Shown here piece by piece: positions 1,892-39,869 of a DNA stretch of 43,348 bases (positions are counted from its first letter, which is position 1; each line of letters starts with the position of its first letter). The translations under genes and the position numbers were made by a program. The DNA lies in contig JACIWU010000020.1 in NCBI GenBank assembly GCA_014360805.1, positions 1 to 43,348 of the forward strand, written 5' to 3'. The DNA comes from Chloroflexota bacterium. Its GTDB lineage: Bacteria; Chloroflexota; Anaerolineae; DTLA01. Below the pieces are notes generated by a model, which searched no databases, had not been told where the DNA came from, and saw only the letters and a list, made by a program, of their open reading frames with translations.

Positions 1892-3316
1892 TCCCGCCTG
1901 CTCCACCACGTGCACCTTCAGCATGTTGGTGCGCCCTGGGCCGCCGATGGGCACGCCGGCGGTGATGATCACCACATCGCCCGCGCGTACCAGCCCCTGG
2001 CCCCTGGCCGCGTCCACCGCCTTGGCGATCATCTCGTCGGTGGTGTCAAACTGCGGCACCAGGAGCGGCTCCACGCCCCAGACCAGCGACAGGCGCGCCG
2101 CCACCTTGGGGTCAGGCGTCGGCGCGAGGATGGGCGTCGCCGGACGGTACTTGGCCACCATGCGCGCCGTGTGGCCCGAGCGCGTGGACGCCAGAATCGC
2201 CGTCGCGCCCAACTCCTGGGCGATTTCGCACGTCGCCTGGCTGATGGCGTCGGTGATGCTCGCGGCGCGGGCGTCGGCGGCTTCCCGCAAGCGCGCCCCG
2301 TAGGGGAAATGCGCCTCGGTGGCCCGCGCGATCTTGCCCATCATCGCCACGCTCTCCACCGGATAGCGCCCCACCGCCGTCTCGCCCGACAGCATGATCG
2401 CGTCGGCCCCGTCCAGGATGGCGTTGGCCACGTCGCTGGCCTCGGCGCGGGTGGGACGCGGGTTGTCTATCATGGACTGGAGCATCTGCGTGGCAATGAT
2501 CACCGGCTTGCCCACCGTGTTGCACTGCCTCACGATGGCTTTCTGATGGATGGGCACGTCCTCGGGCGGGATCTCTACTCCCAGGTCGCCGCGCGCCACC
2601 ATGATGCCGTCGGCGGCCTCCAGGATTTCCGGGAAGCGTTCCAGCGCCTCGCGCTTCTCAATCTTGGCGATGATGGGCGTATCCTCGGCGCCCAGGCTCC
2701 GCAGGAGTCGGCGCAGGTCTGCCACGTGCTCGGGCGACCGCACAAACGACAGCGCGATGAAGTCGGCGCCCGCAGCCACGGCCGCGCGGGCATCCCCTCT
2801 GTCCTTGTCCGTCATGGACGCCATGCGCACCTCGGTGTCGGGCAGCGTAACCCCCTTGCGCGAGGACAGTTCCCCGCCCACGACCACCTCGGCCACCACG
2901 TCGGCGCCGTCCGTCCCCACCGCCCGCAGTTCCAGCAGGCCGTCGTCCAGCAGGATGCGCGCGCCCGGTCGGATGTCGGCCAGAACGTCGGGTTCGGCGA
3001 AGGGGATCTCCCGCTCGCTCCCCGGCACAGGGCGCGCGGTCAACGTGAGGGTCGTCCCTTCGCGCAGGACGACGCTTCCCCCCGCCAGGTCGCCGATGCG
3101 CATCTTGGGCCCTTGCAGGTCGGCAAGGATGCCGATGGGAATGCCGAGTTCGCGGGCGATGCTGCGGGCCATCTCGGCGCGGGCCGCCTGCTGGGCCTGC
3201 GTCCCGTGCGAGTAGTTCAGGCGCAGGACGCGCGCGCCTGCCGCCAGAATCCCGCGCAGCGTCTCGGGCGCATCGGTGGCCGGCCCCAGCGTGCACACGA
3301 TCTTCGTTCGGGTCAT
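1889..3316 (-). CDS. pyk: Pyruvate kinase
   Basis: A 475-residue pyruvate kinase, the usual bacterial length. It converts phosphoenolpyruvate and ADP to pyruvate and ATP in the cytoplasm. Visible signatures: the N-terminal TKIVCTLGPA, R32 and NYSH (34-37), the catalytic lysine in IIAKIE (K218), ARGDLG (241-246), and the ATQMLQSM / RAEASDVANA segments; the allosteric C-terminal domain follows. The start at 3316 is preferred over longer in-frame starts because GGGAGA lies just upstream and family homology begins at MTRTK. It converges on the zinc-ribbon gene and is divergent from xpt. Its product feeds the PFOR encoded at 11461-14530. Confidence 0.96.
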   Translation of the reverse strand: MTRTKIVCTLGPATDAPETLRGILAAGARVLRLNYSHGTQAQQAARAEMARSIARELGIPIGILADLQGPKMRIGDLAGGSVVLREGTTLTLTARPVPGSEREIPFAEPDVLADIRPGARILLDDGLLELRAVGTDGADVVAEVVVGGELSSRKGVTLPDTEVRMASMTDKDRGDARAAVAAGADFIALSFVRSPEHVADLRRLLRSLGAEDTPIIAKIEKREALERFPEILEAADGIMVARGDLGVEIPPEDVPIHQKAIVRQCNTVGKPVIIATQMLQSMIDNPRPTRAEASDVANAILDGADAIMLSGETAVGRYPVESVAMMGKIARATEAHFPYGARLREAADARAASITDAISQATCEIAQELGATAILASTRSGHTARMVAKYRPATPILAPTPDPKVAARLSLVWGVEPLLVPQFDTTDEMIAKAVDAARGQGLVRAGDVVIITAGVPIGGPGRTNMLKVHVVEQAG

Positions 3317-3365
3317 GGCATGTCTCCCTTGCGGCGCAAGGCCGCTGTCGGATGTTCGCTGCCCC

Positions 3366-3374
3366 ATTATAGCA
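3366..3374 (-). promoter_or_regulatory. Extended -10 promoter of pyk
   Basis: On the minus strand TGC directly precedes TATAAT. The -35 region is poor. Transcription would start about 45 nt before the pyk start. Confidence 0.5.
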
Positions 3375-3487
3375 CGGCGGCAATTGGCAGGCCATGTTGC
3401 GCCCGCCGCTGAACCCGCGCGGGCTGTTGGCATCCACGAATAACACGAATCCACACGAATGGAGAATAGTGCTACACCCCGTTGCCC

Positions 3488-3545
3488 ATTCGCGTGAATT
3501 GGCGTCATTCGCGGTTACAGACACGTAGGCGGCTTTCCGCGGCCG
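3488..3545. repeat. Dispersed repeat, ATTCGCGTG..TTCGCGGTTACA type
   Basis: A 32-bp unit at 3488-3519 matches the three copies at 37633, 37739 and 37824 with one to three mismatches. It is followed, as in those copies, by CGTAGG-CGGCTTTCC. The flank 3435-3470 holds the complementary ACGAATAACACGAAT text. It fills the pyk-xpt divergent region. Confidence 0.7.
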
Positions 3546-3601
3546 CCGGAGCAAGGGGCCGATTTCCACCGAAATGTGTACACGACCCGATGCCCCGCGC
3601 C

Positions 3602-3630
3602 TTGCGCGCCGCGCCGCATTCTGCTACAAT
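3602..3630 (+). promoter_or_regulatory. Promoter of xpt-guaA
   Basis: TTGCGC, 17-nt spacer, TACAAT with extended TG. The leader is only about 20 nt, so no purine riboswitch fits between promoter and gene. Confidence 0.6.
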
Positions 3631-3657
3631 AGGCCAAACTCCGGGGAGGTGTTCTCC

Positions 3658-4242
3658 ATGGAATCCCTCAAAGCGCGTATCCTGGCGGAAGGTCGCAACA
3701 TGGGCCGCGGCATCCTGAAGGTGGACAGTTTCGTCAACCACCAAGTGGACGCCGCGCTGATGTACCAGGCGGGGCAGGCGCTGGCCCGGCGTTTCGTCGA
3801 CCAAGGCGTTACCAAAGTCCTCACCGCCGAGATTTCGGGCATCGCCCCCGCCCTGATGACCGCCCTGGCCCTGGGCGTCCCCATCGTCTACGCCCGCAAG
3901 ACCAAGCCCATCACCATGCCCGAGCAAATCTACGTGCGCACGGCGCCGTCGCACACCAAGGGGCACGAGGTGGCGCTGATGGTGTCGCCCGAATTCCTCG
4001 GCCCCGGCGACCGCGTCCTCATAGTGGACGACTTCCTGGCCACGGGCAAGACCATAGATGCGCTCGTCCAAATCGTGCGGGACGCGGGCGCGGAACTGGT
4101 GGGCATCGGCGCGGTGATTGAGAAGACCTTTGAGGGCGGGCGCGCTGTGCTGGAGCGCTACGGCGTCCCCATCTACGCGCTCGTTACCATCACCAGCATG
4201 GAAAACGGTAAGATCACCTTCGCCAACGGGGTGGGACAGTGA
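3658..4242 (+). CDS. xpt: Xanthine phosphoribosyltransferase
   Basis: A 194-residue purine phosphoribosyltransferase of the Xpt type, the same length as the Bacillus enzyme. It makes XMP from xanthine and PRPP. The PRPP-binding motif is seen in [13 protein letters not shown], with a K-rich KTKPITMPE loop and an N-terminal SFVNHQVD substrate region. The start at 3658 follows GGGGAGGT at 3643. Its TGA stop overlaps the GTG start of guaA (GTGA), so XMP production is coupled to XMP amination. Confidence 0.95.
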
Positions 4243-5837
4243 GCAGCGGGAACCCAACCGCATCCTCGGCCTCTCTCCATGCCGGAGAGGGGAGAAGCGG
4301 CGAAACCATCGTCGTGCTGGACTTCGGGTCGCAGTACGCGCAACTCATCGTGCGCCGCGTGCGCGAACAGCATGTGTACTCCGTGCTCGTGCCCCACGAC
4401 GCGCCCGAGGATGAGGTCATGGCCCTGCGGCCCGTGGGGTTTATCCTGTCCGGCGGGCCGGCCAGCGTGTACGACCCAGGCGCGCCGCAACTCCCGCCCT
4501 ACGTGCTCCGCAGCGGCCTGCCGGTGCTGGGCATCTGCTACGGCATGCAACTGCTGGCGCACGCCCTGGGCGGCAAGGTCGCCCCGTCGGCCCGCCGCGA
4601 GTACGGCCCCGCCGAACTGTACATCAACGACCTGGAGTCGCCCCTGTGGGAAGGGCTGCCTTTCTCCCTTCAGGTTTGGATGAGTCACGGCGACGCCATC
4701 ACCGAACTCCCGCCCGGATTCCAGGCGCTGGCGTCCACCGACAACTCGCCCATCGCCGCCATGGGCCATGCAGAGCGCCGCATCTACGGCGTGCAATTCC
4801 ACCCGGAGGTCGTCCACACGCCGCTGGGCAAGGACATCATCCGCAACTTCTTGTACGGCGTATGCGGGTGCCTGGGCACGTGGACGCCGGAATCGTTCAT
4901 CGCGTCTGCGGTGGAATCCATCCGCCGGCAGGTGGGCGACGAGCGCGTCATCGGGGCGCTGTCGGGGGGCGTGGACTCCACGGTGGCGGCCACGCTGGTC
5001 CAGCGGGCCGTCGGCGACCGCCTGACGTGCATTTTCGTGGATCACGGCCTGCTGCGCGAAGGCGAGGCCGAGGCCATCCTGCGCCAGTTGCGCCAGCAGG
5101 TGGGGCTGAACATCATCGCCGTGGACGCCTCGGCGCGGTTCCTCGCGGCGCTGTCGGGCGTGGCGGACCCCGAAGCGAAGCGCCGCATCATCGGCGAGAC
5201 GTTCATCCGCGTGTTTGAGGACGAGGCGGCCAAGATCGGGCACGCGCGGTTCCTGCTCCAGGGCACGCTGTACCCGGATGTTATTGAGAGCACGACGCGA
5301 GACACCAAAGCCGCCGCCCGCATCAAGACCCATCACAACGTGGGCGGGCTTCCTGCCGACCTGCGATTTGAACTCGTGGAGCCGCTCAAGTACCTGTTCA
5401 AGGACGAGGTGCGCGAGGTGGGGCTGGCGCTGGGGTTGCCGCCGGAGATCGTGCATCGCCAGCCGTTCCCGGGGCCGGGGCTGGCCGTGCGCATCATCGG
5501 CGAGGTAACCGCCGAGCGGCTGGCGACCCTGCGCAAGGCCGATGCCATCGTGCGCGAGGAGATTGAGTCGGCAGGGCTGGCCCGCGAGGTCTGGCAGTAC
5601 TTCGCCGTCCTAACGCCCGTGCGCTCCGTGGGCGTCATGGGCGACGGCCGCACCTACCTCAACACCGTGGCCGTGCGCGCCGTGTCCAGCGTGGACGGCA
5701 TGACGGCCGACTGGGCGCGCCTGCCCTACACGGTCCTGGCGCGGATTTCCAACCGCATCGTGAACGAAGTCCCCGGCGTCAACCGCGTCGTGTACGACAT
5801 TTCCAGCAAGCCGCCGGCAACCATAGAGTGGGAGTGA
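4239..5837 (+). CDS. guaA: GMP synthase (glutamine-hydrolysing)
   Basis: Cytoplasmic two-domain enzyme converting XMP to GMP. The class I glutamine amidotransferase domain has nucleophile C100 (LGICYGMQ), H188 and E190; the ATP-pyrophosphatase domain has the P-loop SGGVDS at 242-247; the C-terminal dimer domain ends in TIEWE. The only available start is a GTG overlapping the xpt stop, giving 532 residues. The first 22 residues lie before the conserved [11 protein letters not shown] and are unusual: part is encoded by a small inverted repeat (CTCTCTCC/GGAGAGGGG) like the intergenic repeats elsewhere. sbcD follows after 1 nt. Confidence 0.96.
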
Positions 5838-5838
5838 G

Positions 5839-7059
5839 ATGATACGCCTTGTGCATTTTGCGGACTTTCACCTGGGGACCGAAGCCTACGGCCGCATGGA
5901 CGCGACGACGGGCCTGCCCAGCCGTGTGGTGGATTTCCTGGCCGCGCTGGACGCGATGGTGGACTACGCGCTGGCCGGCGACGTCCACCTGGTCGTCTTC
6001 GCGGGCGACGCCTACAAGACCCGCGACCCCAACCCCACCTACCAGCGCGAGTTCAACACCCGCATCCTGAAACTGGCGCGGGCGGGCATTCCGGTGGTCC
6101 TGGTGGTGGGCAACCACGACCTGGCCCCCGCCGAAGGCCGCGCCAGCACGTTGGATGTGTTCACCACGTTCAGCGCTGACAATGTGTACGTGGGCCGCAC
6201 CATTGAGACGCTCCGCATAGACACGAAGGCCGGCCCCGTGCAGGTCGTTACGCTCCCCTGGGTCCTGCGCAGCCGCTACCTCACCAAAGATGCCACGCGG
6301 GGAAAGTCGGTCAGGGAAGCGGACGAGATGCTCATCGGGGCCATCCTCACGTTCCTGAACCAGGAGAAGCAGGCCCTGTCCCCGGACGTTCCCGCGATTC
6401 TGGCGGCCCATGCCAGCATCCAGGGCGCTTCGTTCGGCTCGGAGCGCAACATCATGCTGGGCCAGGATTTGATCCTGCCCGCGGGCGACATCGCAGACCC
6501 GGTGTTTGACTACGTCGCGCTGGGCCACATCCACAAGCATCAGGTGCTGCGCGAGTACCCGCCGGTCGTGTACGCGGGGAGCCTGGAACGCGTGGACTTC
6601 GGCGAGGAGAAAGAGGACAAGGGATTCGTCGTGGCCGAGGTGGAGAAGGGCCGCGCCCGCTTTGAGTTTCACGCCGTACCCGCGCGCCGCATGGTAACCG
6701 TGAGCGTGGACATCCAGGGCGACGACCCCACCCAAGAGGCGCTGAACGCCATCGCGCGGGCCAGAACCCGAGACGCCATCGTCCGCGTCTTCATCCGCGC
6801 GCGCGAGGATCAGGCCCTACGCCTGGACCAGAAGGCCCTGAATGAGGCGCTGGCCGATGCGTTCTACGTGGCCGCCGTGAACATTGAGCGGGAGCGCCAG
6901 GTTCGGACCCGCCTGGGCGTCGGCGCGCTGGAGCAACTGACGCCGGTGGAGATTCTCGCCCGCTACCTGGAGCAGAGGGGCGAGCCCAAGGAGCGTTTTG
7001 ACCGACTGCTGCAGAAGGGGAGCGAAATCCTGAATCAGGCAGCCTCGCAACAGGATTGA
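5839..7059 (+). CDS. sbcD: SbcD/Mre11-type DNA exonuclease
   Basis: A 406-residue calcineurin-like phosphoesterase of the Mre11/SbcD family, a Mn-dependent nuclease in DNA end processing. The metal ligands are all present: D9 and H11 (ADFHLG), D57 (AGDAY), N92-H93 (GNHD), H191 and H230/H232 (GHIHKH). Residues after about 270 form the cap/dimer region. It starts 1 nt after the guaA stop, so the two are probably cotranscribed. The usual SbcC/Rad50 ATPase partner is not next to it; the following gene is unrelated. Confidence 0.9.
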   Translation: MIRLVHFADFHLGTEAYGRMDATTGLPSRVVDFLAALDAMVDYALAGDVHLVVFAGDAYKTRDPNPTYQREFNTRILKLARAGIPVVLVVGNHDLAPAEGRASTLDVFTTFSADNVYVGRTIETLRIDTKAGPVQVVTLPWVLRSRYLTKDATRGKSVREADEMLIGAILTFLNQEKQALSPDVPAILAAHASIQGASFGSERNIMLGQDLILPAGDIADPVFDYVALGHIHKHQVLREYPPVVYAGSLERVDFGEEKEDKGFVVAEVEKGRARFEFHAVPARRMVTVSVDIQGDDPTQEALNAIARARTRDAIVRVFIRAREDQALRLDQKALNEALADAFYVAAVNIERERQVRTRLGVGALEQLTPVEILARYLEQRGEPKERFDRLLQKGSEILNQAASQQD

Positions 7060-30703: not shown

Positions 30704-31570
30704 TCACGCCGTGCGAGGCGCAGGCTGCGGCAGGTGCCGGGCCAGGTACTCGGCTATGGCGTTCAGCCCCTCGCGGCTCACCTGCGCATGGGGCGTGTTC
30801 GGTAGAAAGAGGTAATCCTTGGGCTCCCGCGCCGCCGCGAAGAATGCCTCGGAGATTTCCTTGGGGATCAGGGCGTCGTCGCCGTTGTGCACGATGAGGA
30901 TGGGGGCCGACACCTGCCCCACCACATCGGCGGGGAAGCGGCTCCACGTGCCGCCCGTGGAGACGCGCGTCCCCATCAGACGGGCCCACCCGCGCCACAA
31001 GGGCACGCTGAACCGCGCCCAGCGGCTGTTGGACAGCGGGGCCGCCGGACAGGCGACGGAGATCACCGCGTCGGCACCCCCGGCCTCGGCGGCGCACACT
31101 ACGCAAGCGGCCGCGCCCAGCGAAAACCCCATCAGGGCCACGCGGCGGTATCGCAGGGCGCGGGCCAGCCGCACCGCCGCCGCAACATCGCAGGCCACCG
31201 GGTCCAGCCCCAGGTCGTAGCGGCCCCCGCTCTCGCCGTGGCCGCGCAGGTCCAGCGCCAACACGTCACAGTCGCGGGCCAGGTATTCGCACGTTTCCAC
31301 GATTTCGGGGGCGTTCTTGCTGCTGGTGAACCCGTGCGCCACGATGACCACATCCTCATGCCCTGAGGCGTAGAGATCTGCCGCCAGCGCGATTCCCTCG
31401 CCATTGTCAAAGCGCAGCCGCACGACCTCGCGCCTCGGCCGGACCCTGGGCCGAACCTTGCGGCGGACGACGACCGGCGCGCTGATGGCCAGGATGCCGC
31501 CAAGGAGCCACCATCCCAAGCCCGGCTTGATCGCCCCTCTACGCTGCCAAGTTCCCTCACGATGACTCAT
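30704..31570 (-). CDS. Membrane-anchored alpha/beta hydrolase
   Basis: A 288-residue hydrolase. An N-terminal hydrophobic segment (about 18-35) with a following Arg-rich stretch suggests membrane anchoring. The nucleophile is S150 in GFSLGAA; the acid lies in VHNGDDALIP and the base in LPNTPHAQV; AHGFTSSKN forms the oxyanion region. Substrate unknown. The start at 31570 has GGAGG and lies 14 nt inside the end of the GNAT gene, so the two are coupled. Confidence 0.85.
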   Translation of the reverse strand: MSHREGTWQRRGAIKPGLGWWLLGGILAISAPVVVRRKVRPRVRPRREVVRLRFDNGEGIALAADLYASGHEDVVIVAHGFTSSKNAPEIVETCEYLARDCDVLALDLRGHGESGGRYDLGLDPVACDVAAAVRLARALRYRRVALMGFSLGAAACVVCAAEAGGADAVISVACPAAPLSNSRWARFSVPLWRGWARLMGTRVSTGGTWSRFPADVVGQVSAPILIVHNGDDALIPKEISEAFFAAAREPKDYLFLPNTPHAQVSREGLNAIAEYLARHLPQPAPRTA

Positions 31571-32432
31571 CGTCGCCTCCCGATGACATGTGTTTCCGAC
31601 GGAGCCGAAGCAGCCGCCATGTGCCAACCTCTTGGAATCCGAGCCGCCTGTAGACGCTTCCGGCGCGCGGATTGTCGTAGAACAGGCAGGGCTGAAGCCT
31701 CTGGCGCAGCAGGTCGCGGCAAAGGGCGCGCATGCAGGCCGTGGCGTGCCCTCGGTTGCGCCATGCGGGCAGCGTGAACACGCCGCCGATCATGGCCATC
31801 TCGGGCGTCTCGGCGTTGGTGAGCGCCGCCGACACGATGCGGCCGCCGTCTTCCGCGACGAAGATCCGCCCGTGGGTCAGCACCCGCCGCAGGCTGACCT
31901 CGTCGCGCGACATCTCGCCCGCCTCGGCGTACAGCGCCGCCAGCCCGGGCAGGTCTGGCTCTGTGGCGCGGCGGGCTTGTTGCGCGTGGGGAGCCTCGCT
32001 CATCGCCTGCATTACGGCGAAGTGCGAACGGTGGTCTTCGGAAGCCTCATAGTTGCGGATGTGCTCCCAGAGGCGGCTGACAAGGCCGTACTCGCCCGTG
32101 ATCGCCCTCGCGCCGGCAGGGTGCCGGTCAACCACCGCCGCCATCGCCGCGAAGTCCGCGTCGCCCGCGCCGGCAGGGTGCCGGTCAACCACCGCCGCCA
32201 TCGCCGCGAAGTCCGCGTCGCCCGCGTCGTACAGCGCCCAGTTGGCGCGGTAGCGCATGAGCACGCCCGCCAGGCGGCCTTGAGCGTCGCACCCCCAATA
32301 CTCCAAATCAGGCTCGCGTATGCCCATGGTCAGCAGGTTGCCGATGAGAAACAGGTTGTTGCGCGGGTCGCCACGGAGAACGGCAAGGAGTTCGGGCGTG
32401 TCCGTGGCGAAGAGTTTGCGGATGGGTCGCAT
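31557..32432 (-). CDS. GNAT-family acetyltransferase with a 19-residue tandem duplication
   Basis: A 291-residue protein with a degenerate N-terminal half (LFLIGNLLTMG) and a catalytic C-terminal GNAT domain (GGVFTLPAWRNRGHATACM as motif A, LFYDNPRAGSVYRRLGF as motif B). It resembles GNAT proteins that act on small metabolites; substrate unknown. Residues around 70-107 contain AGDADFAAMAAVVDRHPAG twice in a row, from an exact 57-bp DNA duplication. ATG at 32432 with GAGG upstream is preferred to a GTG at 32444. Confidence 0.85.
   Translation of the reverse strand: MRPIRKLFATDTPELLAVLRGDPRNNLFLIGNLLTMGIREPDLEYWGCDAQGRLAGVLMRYRANWALYDAGDADFAAMAAVVDRHPAGAGDADFAAMAAVVDRHPAGARAITGEYGLVSRLWEHIRNYEASEDHRSHFAVMQAMSEAPHAQQARRATEPDLPGLAALYAEAGEMSRDEVSLRRVLTHGRIFVAEDGGRIVSAALTNAETPEMAMIGGVFTLPAWRNRGHATACMRALCRDLLRQRLQPCLFYDNPRAGSVYRRLGFQEVGTWRLLRLRRKHMSSGGDDESS
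32110..32223. repeat. Exact 57-bp tandem duplication inside a GNAT gene
   Basis: Units 32110-32166 and 32167-32223 are identical and keep the reading frame (19 codons each). Confidence 0.95.
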
Positions 32433-32465
32433 CGCGTGCCTCACGGAACCGGTTTGACCGCACAG

Positions 32466-34076: not shown

Positions 34077-34444
34077 ATTCTCCTCCTTGCGACAGGTTTC
34101 TTGCGGTGTGTGCGAGTTTGAGACGCGCCCCGGTGCGCGTTTGTTCCGCCTGGCGTCGGGCCGCACACCTCACCCCCACCCTTGGGCCTTCCCTACCCCG
34201 CGGCGGGGAAAATGGTAGGAGCAACCTGCAGGTTGCCCCTACGAGCGAACCGGCGCTCCGCCGGGCTTTGCCCGTTCCACTCGTCGGTGTCGGGTGGCGC
34301 ACCTCACCCCCGGCCTTCGGCCTCCCCTAGCCCGCGGCGGGGAGAGGGGGAACGAGGGGGTAAGGTTGGTATGCCCGCCGTGCGGGCGGAATGCCCTTCG
34401 TGCAGATTCGTGTTATTCGTGGATGACGCTGACGCCAGCCCGAC
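34077..34444. repeat. Repeat-bearing gene-free region
   Basis: It holds several elements. The near-perfect GTAGGA/GCCCCTAC palindrome at 34215-34242 (28 bp, one mismatch) shares its GCAACC core with the copy at 43164. Two CCTCACCCC...CGGCGGGGA units lie at 34166-34210 and 34303-34350; such text also occurs near 43055. A fragment TTCGTGTTATTCGTGG at 34406-34424 is of the type seen at 3430. No gene seen. Confidence 0.7.
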
Positions 34445-34472
34445 TTGACAAACCCGCGCCTCGGTGTATGCT
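34445..34472 (+). promoter_or_regulatory. Promoter of the arsR-like gene
   Basis: TTGACA, 16-nt spacer, TATGCT. Predicted transcription start is near 34479, almost at the likely GTG start. Confidence 0.55.
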
Positions 34473-34479
34473 AATGCAC

Positions 34480-34860
34480 GTGAGCGCACAGGAACACGAG
34501 AACGGCTACGCCGCAATGGCGAAACTGCACAAGGTGCTATCTCATCCGGCGCGGCTGCGCATCCTGGAGTTGCTGGCGCAGTGCGGCGAAGCGTGCGTGT
34601 GCCATCTCGTCGTGGCCCTGGGGCGGCGCCAGCCCTACGTCTCACAGCAGTTGGCCGTTCTGCGCGACGCGAACCTCATCGCCGAGCGCCGCGACGGCAC
34701 ATTGATCTACTACCGCCTTGCCGACGAGCAGGTGATGGAACTCATCGCCGCAAGCCGTCGCTGGGCAAGGGCCAGGCACGGCGAGCGGGCGCAATTCCCC
34801 CCTGTGGAAGAAGGGCCGCTGCCAGGGTGCTCCTGCCCCTCGTGCTCTACGAAGGGATGA
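34480..34860 (+). CDS. arsR: ArsR-family metal/redox-sensing repressor
   Basis: A 126-residue winged-helix regulator. KVLSHPARLRILELL is the typical first helix; C39-V-C41 in the alpha3 region matches the CVC(D) metal site of ArsR; QPYVSQQLAVLRDANLIAERR is the recognition helix and wing. The tail ends in CSCPSC, perhaps a second site. The start is uncertain: ATGs at 34468 and 34474 fall inside or next to the -10 box, the GTG at 34480 would be nearly leaderless, and an ATG at 34516 has no ribosome site. It could regulate the downstream FeS and thioredoxin genes. Confidence 0.88.
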   Translation: MSAQEHENGYAAMAKLHKVLSHPARLRILELLAQCGEACVCHLVVALGRRQPYVSQQLAVLRDANLIAERRDGTLIYYRLADEQVMELIAASRRWARARHGERAQFPPVEEGPLPGCSCPSCSTKG

Positions 34861-34903
34861 CGCCCCTTCCCTCTACCCGCGTAATATTCAAAACCGCGCA
34901 TAG

Positions 34904-34931
34904 TTGACAGCAGGGCCACGTCGGGTATACT
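34904..34931 (+). promoter_or_regulatory. Promoter of the FeS-protein gene
   Basis: TTGACA, 16-nt spacer, TATACT. The leader of about 70 nt holds GCGCAG/CTGCGC arms, a possible hairpin or operator. Confidence 0.65.
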
Positions 34932-35006
34932 GGATGTGGGATACTGCACCTGCCGCGCAGAGGGATCCACGCTGCGCGCATGACCGCCACCGAGGGAGGA
35001 TGCACA

Positions 35007-35534
35007 ATGCTGTGCAAAGAGTACGAACTGGAAGTCATTTCGCCGCCGTGCGACCCGGGTTCGGAGCGCTGGAGCGCCTTCGCGCGGCTCCAAGAGGACA
35101 TCAGCGAGGTCATGCCCTATCTCAACACCATCTGGAAGAACGCCATCTACGACCACGAGAATCGCATCCTGACGATGGTGCGTGGCGGGCGGCGGTACAC
35201 GCTCCGCCCCCATGAGGTTGCCATCAGCAACCTGGAAGATCGGGAAGAGGCCCAGCGCGTGGCCGAGCGCATCCTGGACGAGATCAACAGGGTGTGGGAT
35301 CGGCGGCATGAGATCGTGCCTTCCTACGAGAAGCGCCATCAGCCGACGGTGATGGAAATCTACAAACTCTTGCCGGGCGGGAATTGCAAGCAGTGCGGCG
35401 ATCCCACCTGTTTCGTATTCGCGAGCAAACTGGTGGCGGGCACGACGGACCTGACCCGTTGCGTCCGCATCTACGAGGCCGAATTTGCCGCCCAACGGGA
35501 ACGCCTGGAGCAGATTCTTGGCCTGGTGGAGTGA
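35007..35534 (+). CDS. Small FeS-domain protein (CxxCx4Cx16C)
   Basis: A 175-residue protein whose C-terminal part has C127, C130, C135 and C152, the spacing of the four-cysteine Fe-S domain found in RnfB and in the acetyl-CoA synthase/CODH corrinoid protein (PF04060 type). The N-terminal 110 residues have no motif that I recognise and are predicted mixed alpha/beta. GGGAGGA at 34994 supports the start at 35007. An electron-carrying or cluster-binding accessory role is likely, but the partner is unknown. Confidence 0.8.
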   Translation: MLCKEYELEVISPPCDPGSERWSAFARLQEDISEVMPYLNTIWKNAIYDHENRILTMVRGGRRYTLRPHEVAISNLEDREEAQRVAERILDEINRVWDRRHEIVPSYEKRHQPTVMEIYKLLPGGNCKQCGDPTCFVFASKLVAGTTDLTRCVRIYEAEFAAQRERLEQILGLVE

Positions 35535-35614: not shown

Positions 35615-35674
35615 TTGTTTGAGCGGATTCTGTTTCCAACGGACTTCTCCGCGTGCCTGCCCGAATTAGCGCGG
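35615..35674 (+). pseudogene. Remnant of a universal stress protein start
   Basis: The 20 codons from TTG 35615 read FERILFPTDFSACLPEL, very like the first strand and helix of UspA proteins, and are preceded by AGGGGGA. The frame then runs directly into the thioredoxin gene. This could be a truncated usp gene fused to it. Confidence 0.4.
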
Positions 35675-37576
35675 ATGCGAAAATCGCTCAGAGCATGGAT
35701 ACTGGGGCTGGTGGTCGTCGCGGCGCTGCTGTCGGCGACGGTGCAGGCCCAAGAGCCCAGGGTTCGCGCCGTGCTGTTCTATTCCGATACCTGCCCTCTG
35801 TGCCACAAGGTGCTGGAAGAAGTTCTGCCTCCCCTCACGGCCCAGTACGGGGATCGGCTTGAGGTGAGGCGGGTGGAGATCACGCCCGCCGCGAACTACG
35901 AACTCCTCCTGCGCATGGAGCAGGTGCACAACGTCCCGCCCGACAAGGGCGCGGTGCCCGAGATGTTCATCGGCGATCGCGTCCTTTTCGGCCTGGACGA
36001 GATTCGCGCCCAACTCCCCGCGCTGATTGAGGCGTACCTGGCGGCGGGCGGCGTGGACTGGCCCGAAGGATACGCCGAGCCGCCCGCCACACCCGCCTGG
36101 CCCCTGCCCACGGCCCGGCCCACCCCAAAGGCGTGCCACATCTGCGACGAGGGCGATCCCGTGGTCCGGATGTACTTCTTCTGGAGCAGCCTGTGCCCGG
36201 AATGCCACCGCGTGCAGGATGAGGTGCTGAAGCCGCTGCAGGAGCGGTATGACCGCCAGTTGGTGGTGGACGCCAGGGACGTGGAGAAGTCGCCCGCCGA
36301 CTACGACCTGCTCACGGCGCTGGAGCGGCAGTTCGGCACCGGCGAAGGGGCGCTGCCCGTCATCTTCATCGGCGACCACGTGCTCCACGGGGAACAGGCC
36401 GCCCGCGAGCAACTGGCCGCGCTGGTGGAATATTACATGAACGAGGGTGGCGTGGACTTCCCGAAACTCACCGGTCCCGCCGCGCCGTCGGGCGCGCCCA
36501 GCGGCCAACAGCCGGCCATCCACCTGGCCTACTTCTTCCAGGTGGGCTGCCACGAATGCGACCGCGCCCGCTACGACCTCCAGTATTTGCAGAGCAAGTA
36601 CCCGCAGTTGCGCATTCACGAATACGACATCCAAGAGCACGCCGCGCTGGCCGAATGGCTGGGCGAACGCAACGGCGTGCCGCTGAACAAGCGCCTCACC
36701 GCCCCGGTTGCGTTTGTCGGCTCGGAAGCGCTCCTGGGCGACGGAGTCAACGTCCGCACGCTTGAGGGCGCCATCCAGAAGTACCTCGCTGGCGGAAGCG
36801 GGGCCTACTGGGAGGGCCAGCAAGATGTGGCCAGCGCCGCCGAAAGCATCCTCAGCCGGTTCCGATCCTTCGGGGCGCTGACCGTGGCGGCGGCGGGGCT
36901 GATAGACGGCCTCAACCCGTGCGCCTTCGCCACCATCGTGTTCTTCATCTCCTACCTTGCGTTCACGGGGCGCAAGGGCCGCGACATTGTTTTTGTGGGT
37001 GGGATGTTTACCCTCGGCGTCTTCCTGACCTACCTGGGGGTCGGGGTGGGCTTTCTCAAGTTCCTGGCGAGCCTGCCGTTCTTGCCCGCCATCAGCCGCT
37101 ATCTGTACGGCTTCACGGCGGCCTTGTGCCTGGCGCTGGCGCTGGGCAGCCTGTACGACTGGTACCAGGCGCGGCGGGGGCGGCCTGAAGAGATGCGCCT
37201 GAAACTGCCGACCCGACTGCGGCGCCAGATCAACCGCGTCATCCGCGAGGGTGCGCAAGCCCGCGCCGTCGCCGGCGTGGCCTTCGCCACGGGCATCGTC
37301 GTCTCGCTCATTGAACTGGCGTGCACCGGCCAGGTGTACCTGCCCACGATTCTGTTCGTGCTGGGCGTGCCGGCCATGAGGATTCGGGCGCTGGTCTACC
37401 TGCTGCTGTACAACGTCGTCTTTGTGGTGCCGCTCGTCGTGGTGTTCCTGCTGGCCTACTGGGGCACATCCTCGGAGCGACTGGGCCAATTCGTGAGTCG
37501 GCGCGCCGGCGCAATCAAGTTGGCGACCGCCGGGCTTTTTGCACTCCTGGCGGCGTGGATGATTACCTTCCTGTAG
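35675..37576 (+). CDS. Triple-thioredoxin / CcdA-like membrane protein
   Basis: A 633-residue exported redox protein. A signal peptide (about 1-25) is followed by three thioredoxin-like domains with CxxC at C40/C43 (TCPLC), C174/C177 (LCPEC) and C292/C295 (GCHEC), then a six-helix CcdA/DsbD-like domain (GLIDGLNPCAFATIVFF, LIELACTGQVYLPTI). The membrane part probably moves electrons outward to the thioredoxin domains. ATG 35675 has no clear ribosome site; TTG 35615 in the same frame has one (AGGGGGA), giving a 20-residue extension. It may act on exported thiols or metalloproteins. Confidence 0.88.
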   Translation: MRKSLRAWILGLVVVAALLSATVQAQEPRVRAVLFYSDTCPLCHKVLEEVLPPLTAQYGDRLEVRRVEITPAANYELLLRMEQVHNVPPDKGAVPEMFIGDRVLFGLDEIRAQLPALIEAYLAAGGVDWPEGYAEPPATPAWPLPTARPTPKACHICDEGDPVVRMYFFWSSLCPECHRVQDEVLKPLQERYDRQLVVDARDVEKSPADYDLLTALERQFGTGEGALPVIFIGDHVLHGEQAAREQLAALVEYYMNEGGVDFPKLTGPAAPSGAPSGQQPAIHLAYFFQVGCHECDRARYDLQYLQSKYPQLRIHEYDIQEHAALAEWLGERNGVPLNKRLTAPVAFVGSEALLGDGVNVRTLEGAIQKYLAGGSGAYWEGQQDVASAAESILSRFRSFGALTVAAAGLIDGLNPCAFATIVFFISYLAFTGRKGRDIVFVGGMFTLGVFLTYLGVGVGFLKFLASLPFLPAISRYLYGFTAALCLALALGSLYDWYQARRGRPEEMRLKLPTRLRRQINRVIREGAQARAVAGVAFATGIVVSLIELACTGQVYLPTILFVLGVPAMRIRALVYLLLYNVVFVVPLVVVFLLAYWGTSSERLGQFVSRRAGAIKLATAGLFALLAAWMITFL

Positions 37577-37870
37577 AACACGTAGGCACGAACCTACACG
37601 AATGGAGAATAAATGTAGGCACGTAGTTCCCCATTCGCGTGGATTGGCGTTATTCGCGGTTACAGTTTCGTAGGGTGGCTTTCCACAGCCGCGGCAGGTA
37701 TGGAAACCTGCCCTACGCTCGGTTGCATTGCCTAACCTATTCGCGTGGATTGGCGTTATTCGCGGTTACAGTTTCGTAGGGCGGCTTTCCATAGCCGCGG
37801 CAGGGGGCTGCGCTCCGTTCCCCATTCACGTGGATTGGCGTTATTCGCGGTTACAATGGGGAGCATTTTG
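37577..37870. repeat. Composite repeat block before the selenoprotein candidate
   Basis: Three copies of ATTCGCGTGGATTGGCGTT(ATTCGCGGTTACA) lie at 37633-37664, 37739-37770 and 37824-37855. The first two extend identically through GTTTCGTAGGG (43 bp). The palindrome 37670-37716 runs GTAGGG to CCCTAC with TTTCCA/TGGAAA arms; a partial copy follows at 37776. Spacing is irregular, so this is not a CRISPR array. Confidence 0.8.
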
Positions 37871-37895
37871 GGCTGATGGGCAAGCGTGGTATTAT
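37868..37895 (+). promoter_or_regulatory. Possible promoter of the selenoprotein candidate
   Basis: Weak: TTGGGC, 16-nt spacer, TATTAT with TGG before it. About 75 nt of leader precede the GTG start. Confidence 0.35.
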
Positions 37896-37976
37896 ATCGT
37901 TGCAGCCGGAACCTTTGCCGGCCTGGTGCGAAACTTGGCCGCCCTGGGCAAATGACCTGATTTTGTGAGGTGAGTC

Positions 37977-39038
37977 GTGGCGAAGAAACGCAAGAAGAAA
38001 CAGGTCCCCAAGCAGGCTCCGCGCACGGCGCAGGCAGCGAAGAAAGCCGAGCCCAAACCCAAGCCGAAGGCCGGCGAGCGTAGCTCCATTCGGCGGTGGA
38101 TCGCGCCTGTTGCGCTGGCGCTGGTTGTCGTCGCGGCTCTCATCACCGCCCAGGCCCTCATCCGCCGCAACGCCGCGCGCCCCACAGGCCCCTGGACACT
38201 CACCATCCTGCACACCACCGACGTGGAAGGGTACCTGGACCCCTGCGGCTGACGCCCGCCCAAGGGGGGTGTGGCCCGTCGGGCCACCGTCATCAAGGAC
38301 TACCGCGCCAAGACCCCGTACCTGCTCGTCTTGGACGCGGGCGACGCGCTCTTCGGCCAGCCCGTCTCCGACGTCAGCCAGGGCAAGGCGCTCACCGAGG
38401 CGATGGATCTCATGGGATACAACGCCATGGCCATCGGCGAACGCGACACAGGCCATTGGGACGAATTGCTGGCCCGCTCGCGCGAGGCGAAGTTCGCCTT
38501 CCTGTCGGCGAACCTGGTTTACGCCAACACCGGCAAGCCGGTCTTCACGCCCTACGTCGTGCAGGACGTCGGCGGGCACAAAGTCGCCATCATCGGCCTG
38601 TCTCCGGCCGACGACTCGCTCAAGGCCTTCGCTCCGTCGGACGTTACGGTCAAAGACCCCGTGGAGACCGCCCGCGAGTACGTGAGCAAGGCCCGCGCCG
38701 AGAACGTGGATGCCGTCGTCATCCTGTCGCACGCGGGCAACGTGATGGATCGCAAGATCGCAATGGAGGTGGACGGCATCACCGCCATCGTGGGCGGGCA
38801 CTCCTACGACCTGCTCCAGGAGACGCTGCAACTGAACAACACGGTCATCGGACAGGCGGGCTACGGCGGCGAATGGCTGGGCGAGATCACCGTGGACTTT
38901 GACGCCGAAGGCAAAATCGTCTCGGCCAAGGCGGGCGTGATTCCCCTCACGGAGGAGTACGCCGACGATCCGGAACTGGCCGCTTTGGCCGCCCGCTACA
39001 ACGCCGCGCTCCCGCCGACGCCCACCATCCAGCCGTAG
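37977..39038 (+). CDS. Membrane-anchored metallophosphatase-like protein with in-frame TGA (candidate Sec92)
   Basis: 353 residues if TGA codon 92 (38250) is read through. A Lys-rich N-terminus and one transmembrane helix (about 40-62) precede a calcineurin/5'-nucleotidase-like domain: ILHTTDVEGYLDPCG, then TGA, RPPKGGVARRATVIK, LVLDAGDALFG, GERDTGH, VVILSHAG and IVGGHSY. Several metal ligands of true 5'-nucleotidases are changed. Relatives that I recall carry Cys-Gly-Cys at this point, so the TGA replaces Cys. No frameshift is needed. GTG 37977 follows GAGGTGA. Alternatives: a nonsense mutation or two fragments. Confidence 0.7.
38250..38288 (+). promoter_or_regulatory. SECIS-like hairpin after the in-frame TGA
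   Basis: After the TGA, GTGGCCC (38271-38277) pairs with GGGCCAC (38281-38287) around loop GTC, with an unpaired T at 38270 and a G-C pair beyond. The loop G lies 25 nt after the TGA. Position, bulged U and G-first loop resemble bacterial SECIS elements. Confidence 0.55.
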
Positions 39039-39059: not shown

Positions 39060-39869
39060 ATGGCCGTCTTGGGCCGGAACATCGCCGTGGTGGTCAAGGG
39101 GGGCGGCGACCTGGCTTCGGGCGTCGCCTGGAGGTTGTGGCAGTGCGGGTTCCAGGTCGTGGTTACGGAAATCCCCGCGCCCACCGTCATCCGCCGCAAA
39201 GTTGCCTTCGCGACGGCGGTCTGGGAGGGGGAGACCGTGGTGGACGGCGTGCGGGCGCGACGGGTGGAGGGGCTGGAAGGCGTGAGGCGTGCCTGGGCCG
39301 AGGGGGTTCTGCCCGTCGTCGTGGATCCCGAAGCCGCCATCGTGCGCGAACTGCGCCCGGATGTGGTGGTGGACGCCATCCTGGCCAAGCGCAACCTGGG
39401 CACGCGCATCACCGACGCGCCGCTGGTCATCGGCCTGGGGCCGGGCTTCACCGCAGGCGAGGACGCCCACGCCGTCGTAGAGACCATGCGCGGGCACACC
39501 CTGGGGCGAGTCATCTGGAAGGGCCAGGCCTTGCCCAACACGGGAATCCCCGGCGAAGTGGGGGGCCACTCCGAACTGCGGGTGGTGCGCGCCCCGTGCG
39601 CGGGCGAATTCCGCGGCGTTCGCGAAATCGGCGACATGGTGGACGAAGGCGACATCGTCGCGTATGTGGACGCCGAGCCAGTGCGTGTACGGCTGAAGGG
39701 CGTCTTGCGCGGGCTGCTCCACGACGGGTTGCAGGTGTTCCCCAACATGAAGGTGGGCGACGTAGACCCGCGCGCCCAGCGCGAACACTGCTTCACCATC
39801 TCGGACAAGGCGCTGGCCATCGCGGGCGGCGTGCTGGAGGCTATCCTGCACGCCATGCGCGCAGCCTAA
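39060..39869 (+). CDS. yqeB: YqeB-family selenium-dependent molybdenum hydroxylase protein
   Basis: A 269-residue protein of the EF2563/YqeB family, associated with selenium-dependent molybdenum hydroxylases that use a labile selenium cofactor. It has VVVKGGGDLASGVAWRL at the N-terminus, a nucleotide-binding-like start, DAILAKRNLGT, IGLGPGFTAGEDAHAVVE and RAPCAGEFRG with a lipoyl-like VREIGDMVDEGDIVAYVD stretch. AAGGAGG lies 8 nt before the start. It follows the TGA-containing gene by 21 nt, so both are probably one transcript. No hydroxylase gene is in the window. Confidence 0.88.
   Translation: MAVLGRNIAVVVKGGGDLASGVAWRLWQCGFQVVVTEIPAPTVIRRKVAFATAVWEGETVVDGVRARRVEGLEGVRRAWAEGVLPVVVDPEAAIVRELRPDVVVDAILAKRNLGTRITDAPLVIGLGPGFTAGEDAHAVVETMRGHTLGRVIWKGQALPNTGIPGEVGGHSELRVVRAPCAGEFRGVREIGDMVDEGDIVAYVDAEPVRVRLKGVLRGLLHDGLQVFPNMKVGDVDPRAQREHCFTISDKALAIAGGVLEAILHAMRAA

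Follow-up and report, generated by a model that had tools for sequence, protein, structure and literature searches.

A haem-free Chloroflexota variant of the UshA-like CxU selenoproteins with a decayed 5'-nucleotidase site and a likely redox function

The DNA analyzed here, which we call the window, comprises 43,348 nucleotides of a Chloroflexota bacterium (assembly GCA_014360805.1, contig JACIWU010000020.1). On its forward strand a single open frame extends from 37977 to 39038, and its sole internal stop is a TGA at 38250-38252, just as the original prediction had read it. With the TGA translated as selenocysteine (Sec) the frame encodes an UshA-like protein of 353 residues, an assignment based on profile matches, homologs and dN/dS on either side of the TGA. 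A putative Shine-Dalgarno sequence, GAGGTG (37967-37972), precedes the GTG start. The read-through protein has a lysine-rich tail, followed by a hydrophobic helix (residues 35-65, codons 38079-38171) and a domain opening with LTILHTTDVEGYLDPCG-U-RPPKGGVARRAT. The helix is a probable membrane anchor, as suggested by an AlphaFold2 helix over these residues and the hydrophobic stretch in the sequence. The predicted context DPCG-TGA-RPPKGG is present, with DPCGU as residues 88-92, and the motif Cys90-Gly91-Sec92 (TGC GGC TGA) lies at 38244-38252; the same C-G-TGA is found in about 35 Chloroflexota genes and 23 genes of a sister clade. A SECIS hairpin, recognized by pairing, spacing and covariation, follows at 38271-38287. 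The next gene on the same strand, 21 nt downstream, is yqeB (39060-39869; selenium-dependent molybdenum cofactor biosynthesis), with 384 bits for TIGR03309 against a cut-off of 220. The upstream gene (35615-37576, forward strand) encodes thioredoxin/glutaredoxin-like segments, matched by Pfam Glrx-like, Glutaredoxin and Thioredoxin_2, and a putative CcdA-like membrane part that was assigned by reading the sequence. Immediately 5' of the selenoprotein gene, at 37630-37889, a 69-nt repeat unit (ATTCGCGTGGATTGGCGTTATTCGCGGTTACA...) is present three times; its 27-nt core has 54 genomic matches when up to three mismatches are allowed, against none for the reversed control.

The window gene very probably encodes a genuine selenoprotein, because its TGA is kept, a relative carries Cys, selection acts on both sides of the codon, the hairpin shows compensatory changes and the Sec machinery is present. 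About 35 distinct homologs from Chloroflexota share the TGA at this codon, those of the other two genomes in the genus included, and one relative (L014) has TGC there with the motif CAC, thus providing a Cys homolog at the position of residue 92. Among three members of the genus dN/dS is 0.16-0.19 when every codon up to the TGA is counted and 0.09-0.19 for the part following the hairpin, which shows that purifying selection acts at the protein level on both sides. A search of the genome for selA, selB, selC and selD found all four: selB on C51 (343 bits, cut-off 242), tRNA-Sec (selC) with anticodon TCA on C11, selA on C12 (577 bits) and selD on C22, the latter itself containing an in-frame TGA. 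Moreover, yqeC is present, so that the markers of the selenium-cofactor trait as given in PMC9312934 (selD, yqeB, yqeC) are complete. The genome also carries a second PCGU selenoprotein gene (L002; C12, 4397-5218, reverse strand), tail to tail with selA at a distance of 67 nt, an order that the other two members of the genus share (L035, L054).

The hairpin was found at the place and with the shape that had been described: the stem GTGGCCC/GGGCCAC with a GTC loop begins 18 nt past the TGA, and the loop G (38278) lies 25 nt past it, a spacing shared by 33 of 34 genes. The T bulge noted earlier was not clearly seen, the stem being perfect over 7 bp. Since the folding energy of the single hairpin (z = -1.66) is not decisive, covariation was used instead. 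Pairing alone is little proof here, because the conserved peptide encoded by the hairpin, (V/L)ARRA(T/S), is itself almost palindromic. The frame places third codon positions opposite each other in the stem. Of these silent-silent pairs, one never mismatches in 35 genes, being C-G in 28 and T-A in the other seven; a second is G-C, G-U, T-A, C-G or A-T in 34 of the 35, and on the protein tree the two require at least four and at least five changes, respectively. When synonymous codons were permuted among the sequences, the observed pairing was reached in none of 5000 trials. Over 30 sequences 98.9% of the cells are paired and the covariation score is 0.208 versus 0.091 after shuffling, which no shuffle out of 500 matched; with slid stems the paired share falls to 29-48%, and RNAalifold recovers the same stem. 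At the loop Arg all 34 genes use CGG or CGT, a count that, like those of covariation and spacing, comes from related sequences and does not represent independent events. Among the ORFs of the window CGC greatly outnumbers every other Arg codon, and control genes with a similar peptide lacking the TGA use all four CGN codons at the loop Arg. Furthermore, synonymous divergence between members of the genus is 0.07-0.22 over the 18 hairpin codons versus 0.25-0.80 across the whole flanking stretches. The hairpin thus appears to be maintained by selection, as judged from these alignments. Rfam scans returned no hit that reached the gathering score, and those with E-values up to 10 were attributable to chance.

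The original prediction was borne out in proposing a genuine selenoprotein gene with its own SECIS; its suggestion of a new selenoprotein family did not hold. The family has been named since 2008, when a selenoproteome survey of the GOS data listed "COG0737, UshA-like, CxU" (76 forms with Sec and 92 with Cys; PMC2398784), and it recurs in 2022 (PMC9312934) and 2026 (PMC13188914) as well as in the NCBIfam models NF041198 and NF049981. The 2008 survey names the UshA-like proteins as an exception that lacks a conserved Cys-based redox motif (PMC2398784), and no functional assignment for them was found in the literature searched. The best NCBIfam model for the window protein is NF041198 (UshA_like_PCGU, "UshA-like (seleno)protein"), with 168.4 bits over positions 8-273 of 519. 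The two share PCG-Sec followed by GG(L/V)ARR/ARK, with PCG(U/C) following the first strand, and furthermore the fold, a decayed metal site and one clade. However, the window protein ends short of the model's second half and lacks the C-terminal half with four CXXCH. Since its score lies below the curated cut-off of this equivalog (275 bits), it is not filed as an NF041198 equivalog. It is instead filed with the UshA-like CxU selenoproteins in the broad sense, as a haem-free Chloroflexota variant; its COG0737-type domain with CxU corresponds to this group. The second family, NF049981 (UshA_like_Sel_2), shares single-domain length, fold and a Sec in the same loop, but is a CxxU family; the window protein reaches 42.2 bits against a cut-off of 140, and the relatives taken here as putative members have PCPTU or PCPSU spacing instead of CxU. 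In the tree all PCGU proteins fall on one side (SH-aLRT 96) and split into a short Chloroflexota form (36 rows, 96) and another form (24 rows, 99), in a quick reconstruction that has no bootstraps and kept the motif columns. Proteins scoring above the NF041198 cut-off occur in 42 of the 297 genomes of the phylum of a MAG titled Deltaproteobacteria, and the plasmid matches listed are canonical 5'-nucleotidases or unannotated. As the Chloroflexota branch lies below the NCBIfam cut-off, annotation is likely to take its genes for truncated nucleotidases.

The half that is missing from the window protein can be seen in the sister clade. There, 23 of 24 full-length relatives (L190-L214) have exactly four CXXCH in a C-terminal half that is not the usual 5'-nucleotidase domain, and Pfam Cytochrome_C554 matched all five proteins scanned; this half is a tetraheme cytochrome c. 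None of the Chloroflexota forms contains CXXCH, and in the flanks examined no multihaem genes lie beside the short relatives except for one ORF with three CXXCH (in L224). The fusion of a PCGU domain to a tetraheme cytochrome is a new observation here; no mention of it was found in the literature searched, a search that reached few subscription papers.

The AlphaFold2 model of the window protein has a pLDDT of 91, and its best matches among solved structures are 5'-nucleotidases, with about 23-30% identity. For the catalytic site we used the numbering of E. coli UshA, which we take to be D41, H43, D84, N116, H117, D120, H217, H252 and 254, and transferred these positions by alignment with the canonical enzyme of the same genome (L003). 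The corresponding residues of the window protein are D, E, D, E, R, G, H, H and Y, respectively. The equivalents of H43, N116, H117, D120 and H254 are hence replaced, leaving neither a full set of dimetal ligands nor the His-Asp dyad. Among 59 PCGU proteins (36 Chloroflexota and 23 sister forms) N116, H117 and D120 are never intact and H43 is gone in nearly all, and the positions other than D41 vary widely, whereas 13 canonical relatives taken as controls retain nearly all residues of the site. With D41 invariant among the Chloroflexota forms and D84, H217 and H252 retained, the window protein may still bind some metal. The CGU motif, which was not seen in the canonical 5'-nucleotidase controls, sits after the strand and loop that once carried the first metal ligands. 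The N-terminal domain fold is thus shared with 5'-nucleotidases, UshA and CD73, but compared with these and with SoxB the window protein is without the catalytic dyad, several metal ligands and the C-terminal nucleotide-binding domain. Because the catalytic residues are lost in all 59 PCGU proteins, "metallophosphatase" would describe their fold and not their function; the earlier term "metallophosphatase-like" was right for the former and misleading for the latter. This loss across the PCGU family is new here and is evidence toward a redox protein.

Also new here are relatives that vary the motif itself. At least five UshA-like paralogs with differing motifs occur in a single Anaerolineales genome (L233 on C35 near 3,400; L234/L091 on C41, DCVA01000037.1; L236 on C30): two have PCGU, one has UGU with TGA at both positions, one has adjacent TGA-TGA (GGUUP) and one has PATU without Cys, each with a hairpin after the last TGA. 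Other relatives (L217-L229, L231, L232, L182, L201, L151, L028) show PCPTU, PCPSU or PCPGU as well as SGU without Cys; further variants are PSGURGC in a Zixibacteria MAG, and PCNTU and ACGVU in Chloroflexota. In L201, a tetraheme form, Ser-Gly-Arg replaces Cys-Gly-Sec. The exchanges between CGU, CAC, UGU and adjacent UU support what may be a redox pair. However, neither a lone Sec (SGU, ATU) nor Ser-Gly-Arg fits an obligatory selenenylsulfide or a simple two-residue cycle.

Taken together, the best reading, to which we assign a probability of about 0.7, is that the window protein is a membrane-anchored extracytoplasmic selenol/thiol oxidoreductase that belongs to the known UshA-like CxU family as its Chloroflexota branch, which is haem-free. 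A redox function is likely in preference to a phosphatase function. The hairpin at 38271-38287 would direct SelB and tRNA-Sec to insert Sec at UGA 38250, and the product would be anchored in the membrane outside the cytoplasm. It keeps the N-terminal fold of UshA with a decayed dimetal site and dyad, and carries Cys-Gly-Sec in the loop after the strand of the first metal ligands, where Cys90-SH and Sec92-SeH could cycle with a selenenylsulfide. In the sister branch electrons would pass through the protein's own four haems; the Chloroflexota branch would need a separate electron partner, possibly the upstream thioredoxin/CcdA-like protein. The loss of catalytic residues and the fused tetraheme cytochrome make electron transfer at the Sec site a testable function. 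With somewhat less confidence, the whole UshA-like selenoprotein family may be seen as a clade of former 5'-nucleotidases that gave up the metal site for redox chemistry at Sec/Cys. Electrons would then pass through a tetraheme cytochrome in one lineage and, in Chloroflexota, through separate partners, with two Sec (UGU, UU) in some paralogs. If true, a fold with no known redox role would here serve as an extracytoplasmic selenol oxidoreductase.

The order of the upstream thioredoxin/CcdA-like gene is kept in genomes G001 and G002, and by its position alone its product is possibly the electron partner. Against the oxidoreductase reading, the Chloroflexota loci outside the genus have no haem, and no conserved redox neighbor was found there. 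Their sole recurrent neighbor, an aspartate-kinase-like gene at four loci, was judged incidental. The yqeB gene is present as predicted, but its position is weak evidence of a functional link: the adjacency is conserved within the genus only, and a link was looked for and not found outside it.

A first alternative to this reading concerns decoding. The TGA could be a true stop with a restart at GTG 38271, which opens an ORF of 255 residues, or the gene could be decayed or mis-sequenced; TGA serves as an ordinary stop elsewhere in the window, and the hairpin energy by itself is unremarkable. These explanations are highly improbable in view of the same-codon TGA in dozens of independent genomes, the purifying selection upstream of it, the Cys homolog, the covarying hairpin and the complete Sec machinery. 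Sequencing error and pseudogene were accordingly rejected on TGA conservation and dN/dS. A recoding of TGA as Trp was also rejected, since many ORFs of the window stop at TGA and Trp is encoded by TGG.

If Sec is inserted, the protein could still be a metal-dependent nucleotidase or phosphoesterase in which Sec is a metal ligand or tunes the site. The 5'-nucleotidase fold, D41, which is invariant among the Chloroflexota forms, and the retained D84, H217 and H252 would fit this. Nevertheless, the absence of N116, the catalytic H117 and D120 from 59 of 59 PCGU proteins, the near-complete loss of H43, the separate canonical 5'-nucleotidase (L003) in the same genome and the tetraheme fusion of the sister forms make it quite unlikely. 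Only a small chance is likewise given to a Sec-dependent binding or transfer protein without redox turnover, for instance a carrier of metal, metalloid, sulfane sulfur or selenium, in which the basic ARR would hold an anionic ligand. The lone-Sec variants without a partner Cys would fit such a role. SoxB, a hydrolase of sulfur compounds, is the second-best NCBIfam model for the window protein (135.6 bits), and genes for an ArsR-like protein, an Fe-S protein and an ACR3-like permease lie directly upstream of the PCGU selenoprotein gene in L090 (Anaerolineae SJ583, 3,085-6,150), ArsR-like and Fe-S genes also being found upstream in the window (34294-35534). However, this neighbor pattern was seen in one distant locus only, and the tetraheme fusion points to electron transfer.

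Two further repeats were observed elsewhere in the window. At its start, positions 70-223 hold about two copies of an 81-nt repeat that are 93% identical. Within the ORF at 31557-32444 there is an exact tandem duplication of 57 nt (32109-32226; 2.1 copies, 100% identical), which adds 19 residues in frame and is either a recent duplication or an assembly artifact.
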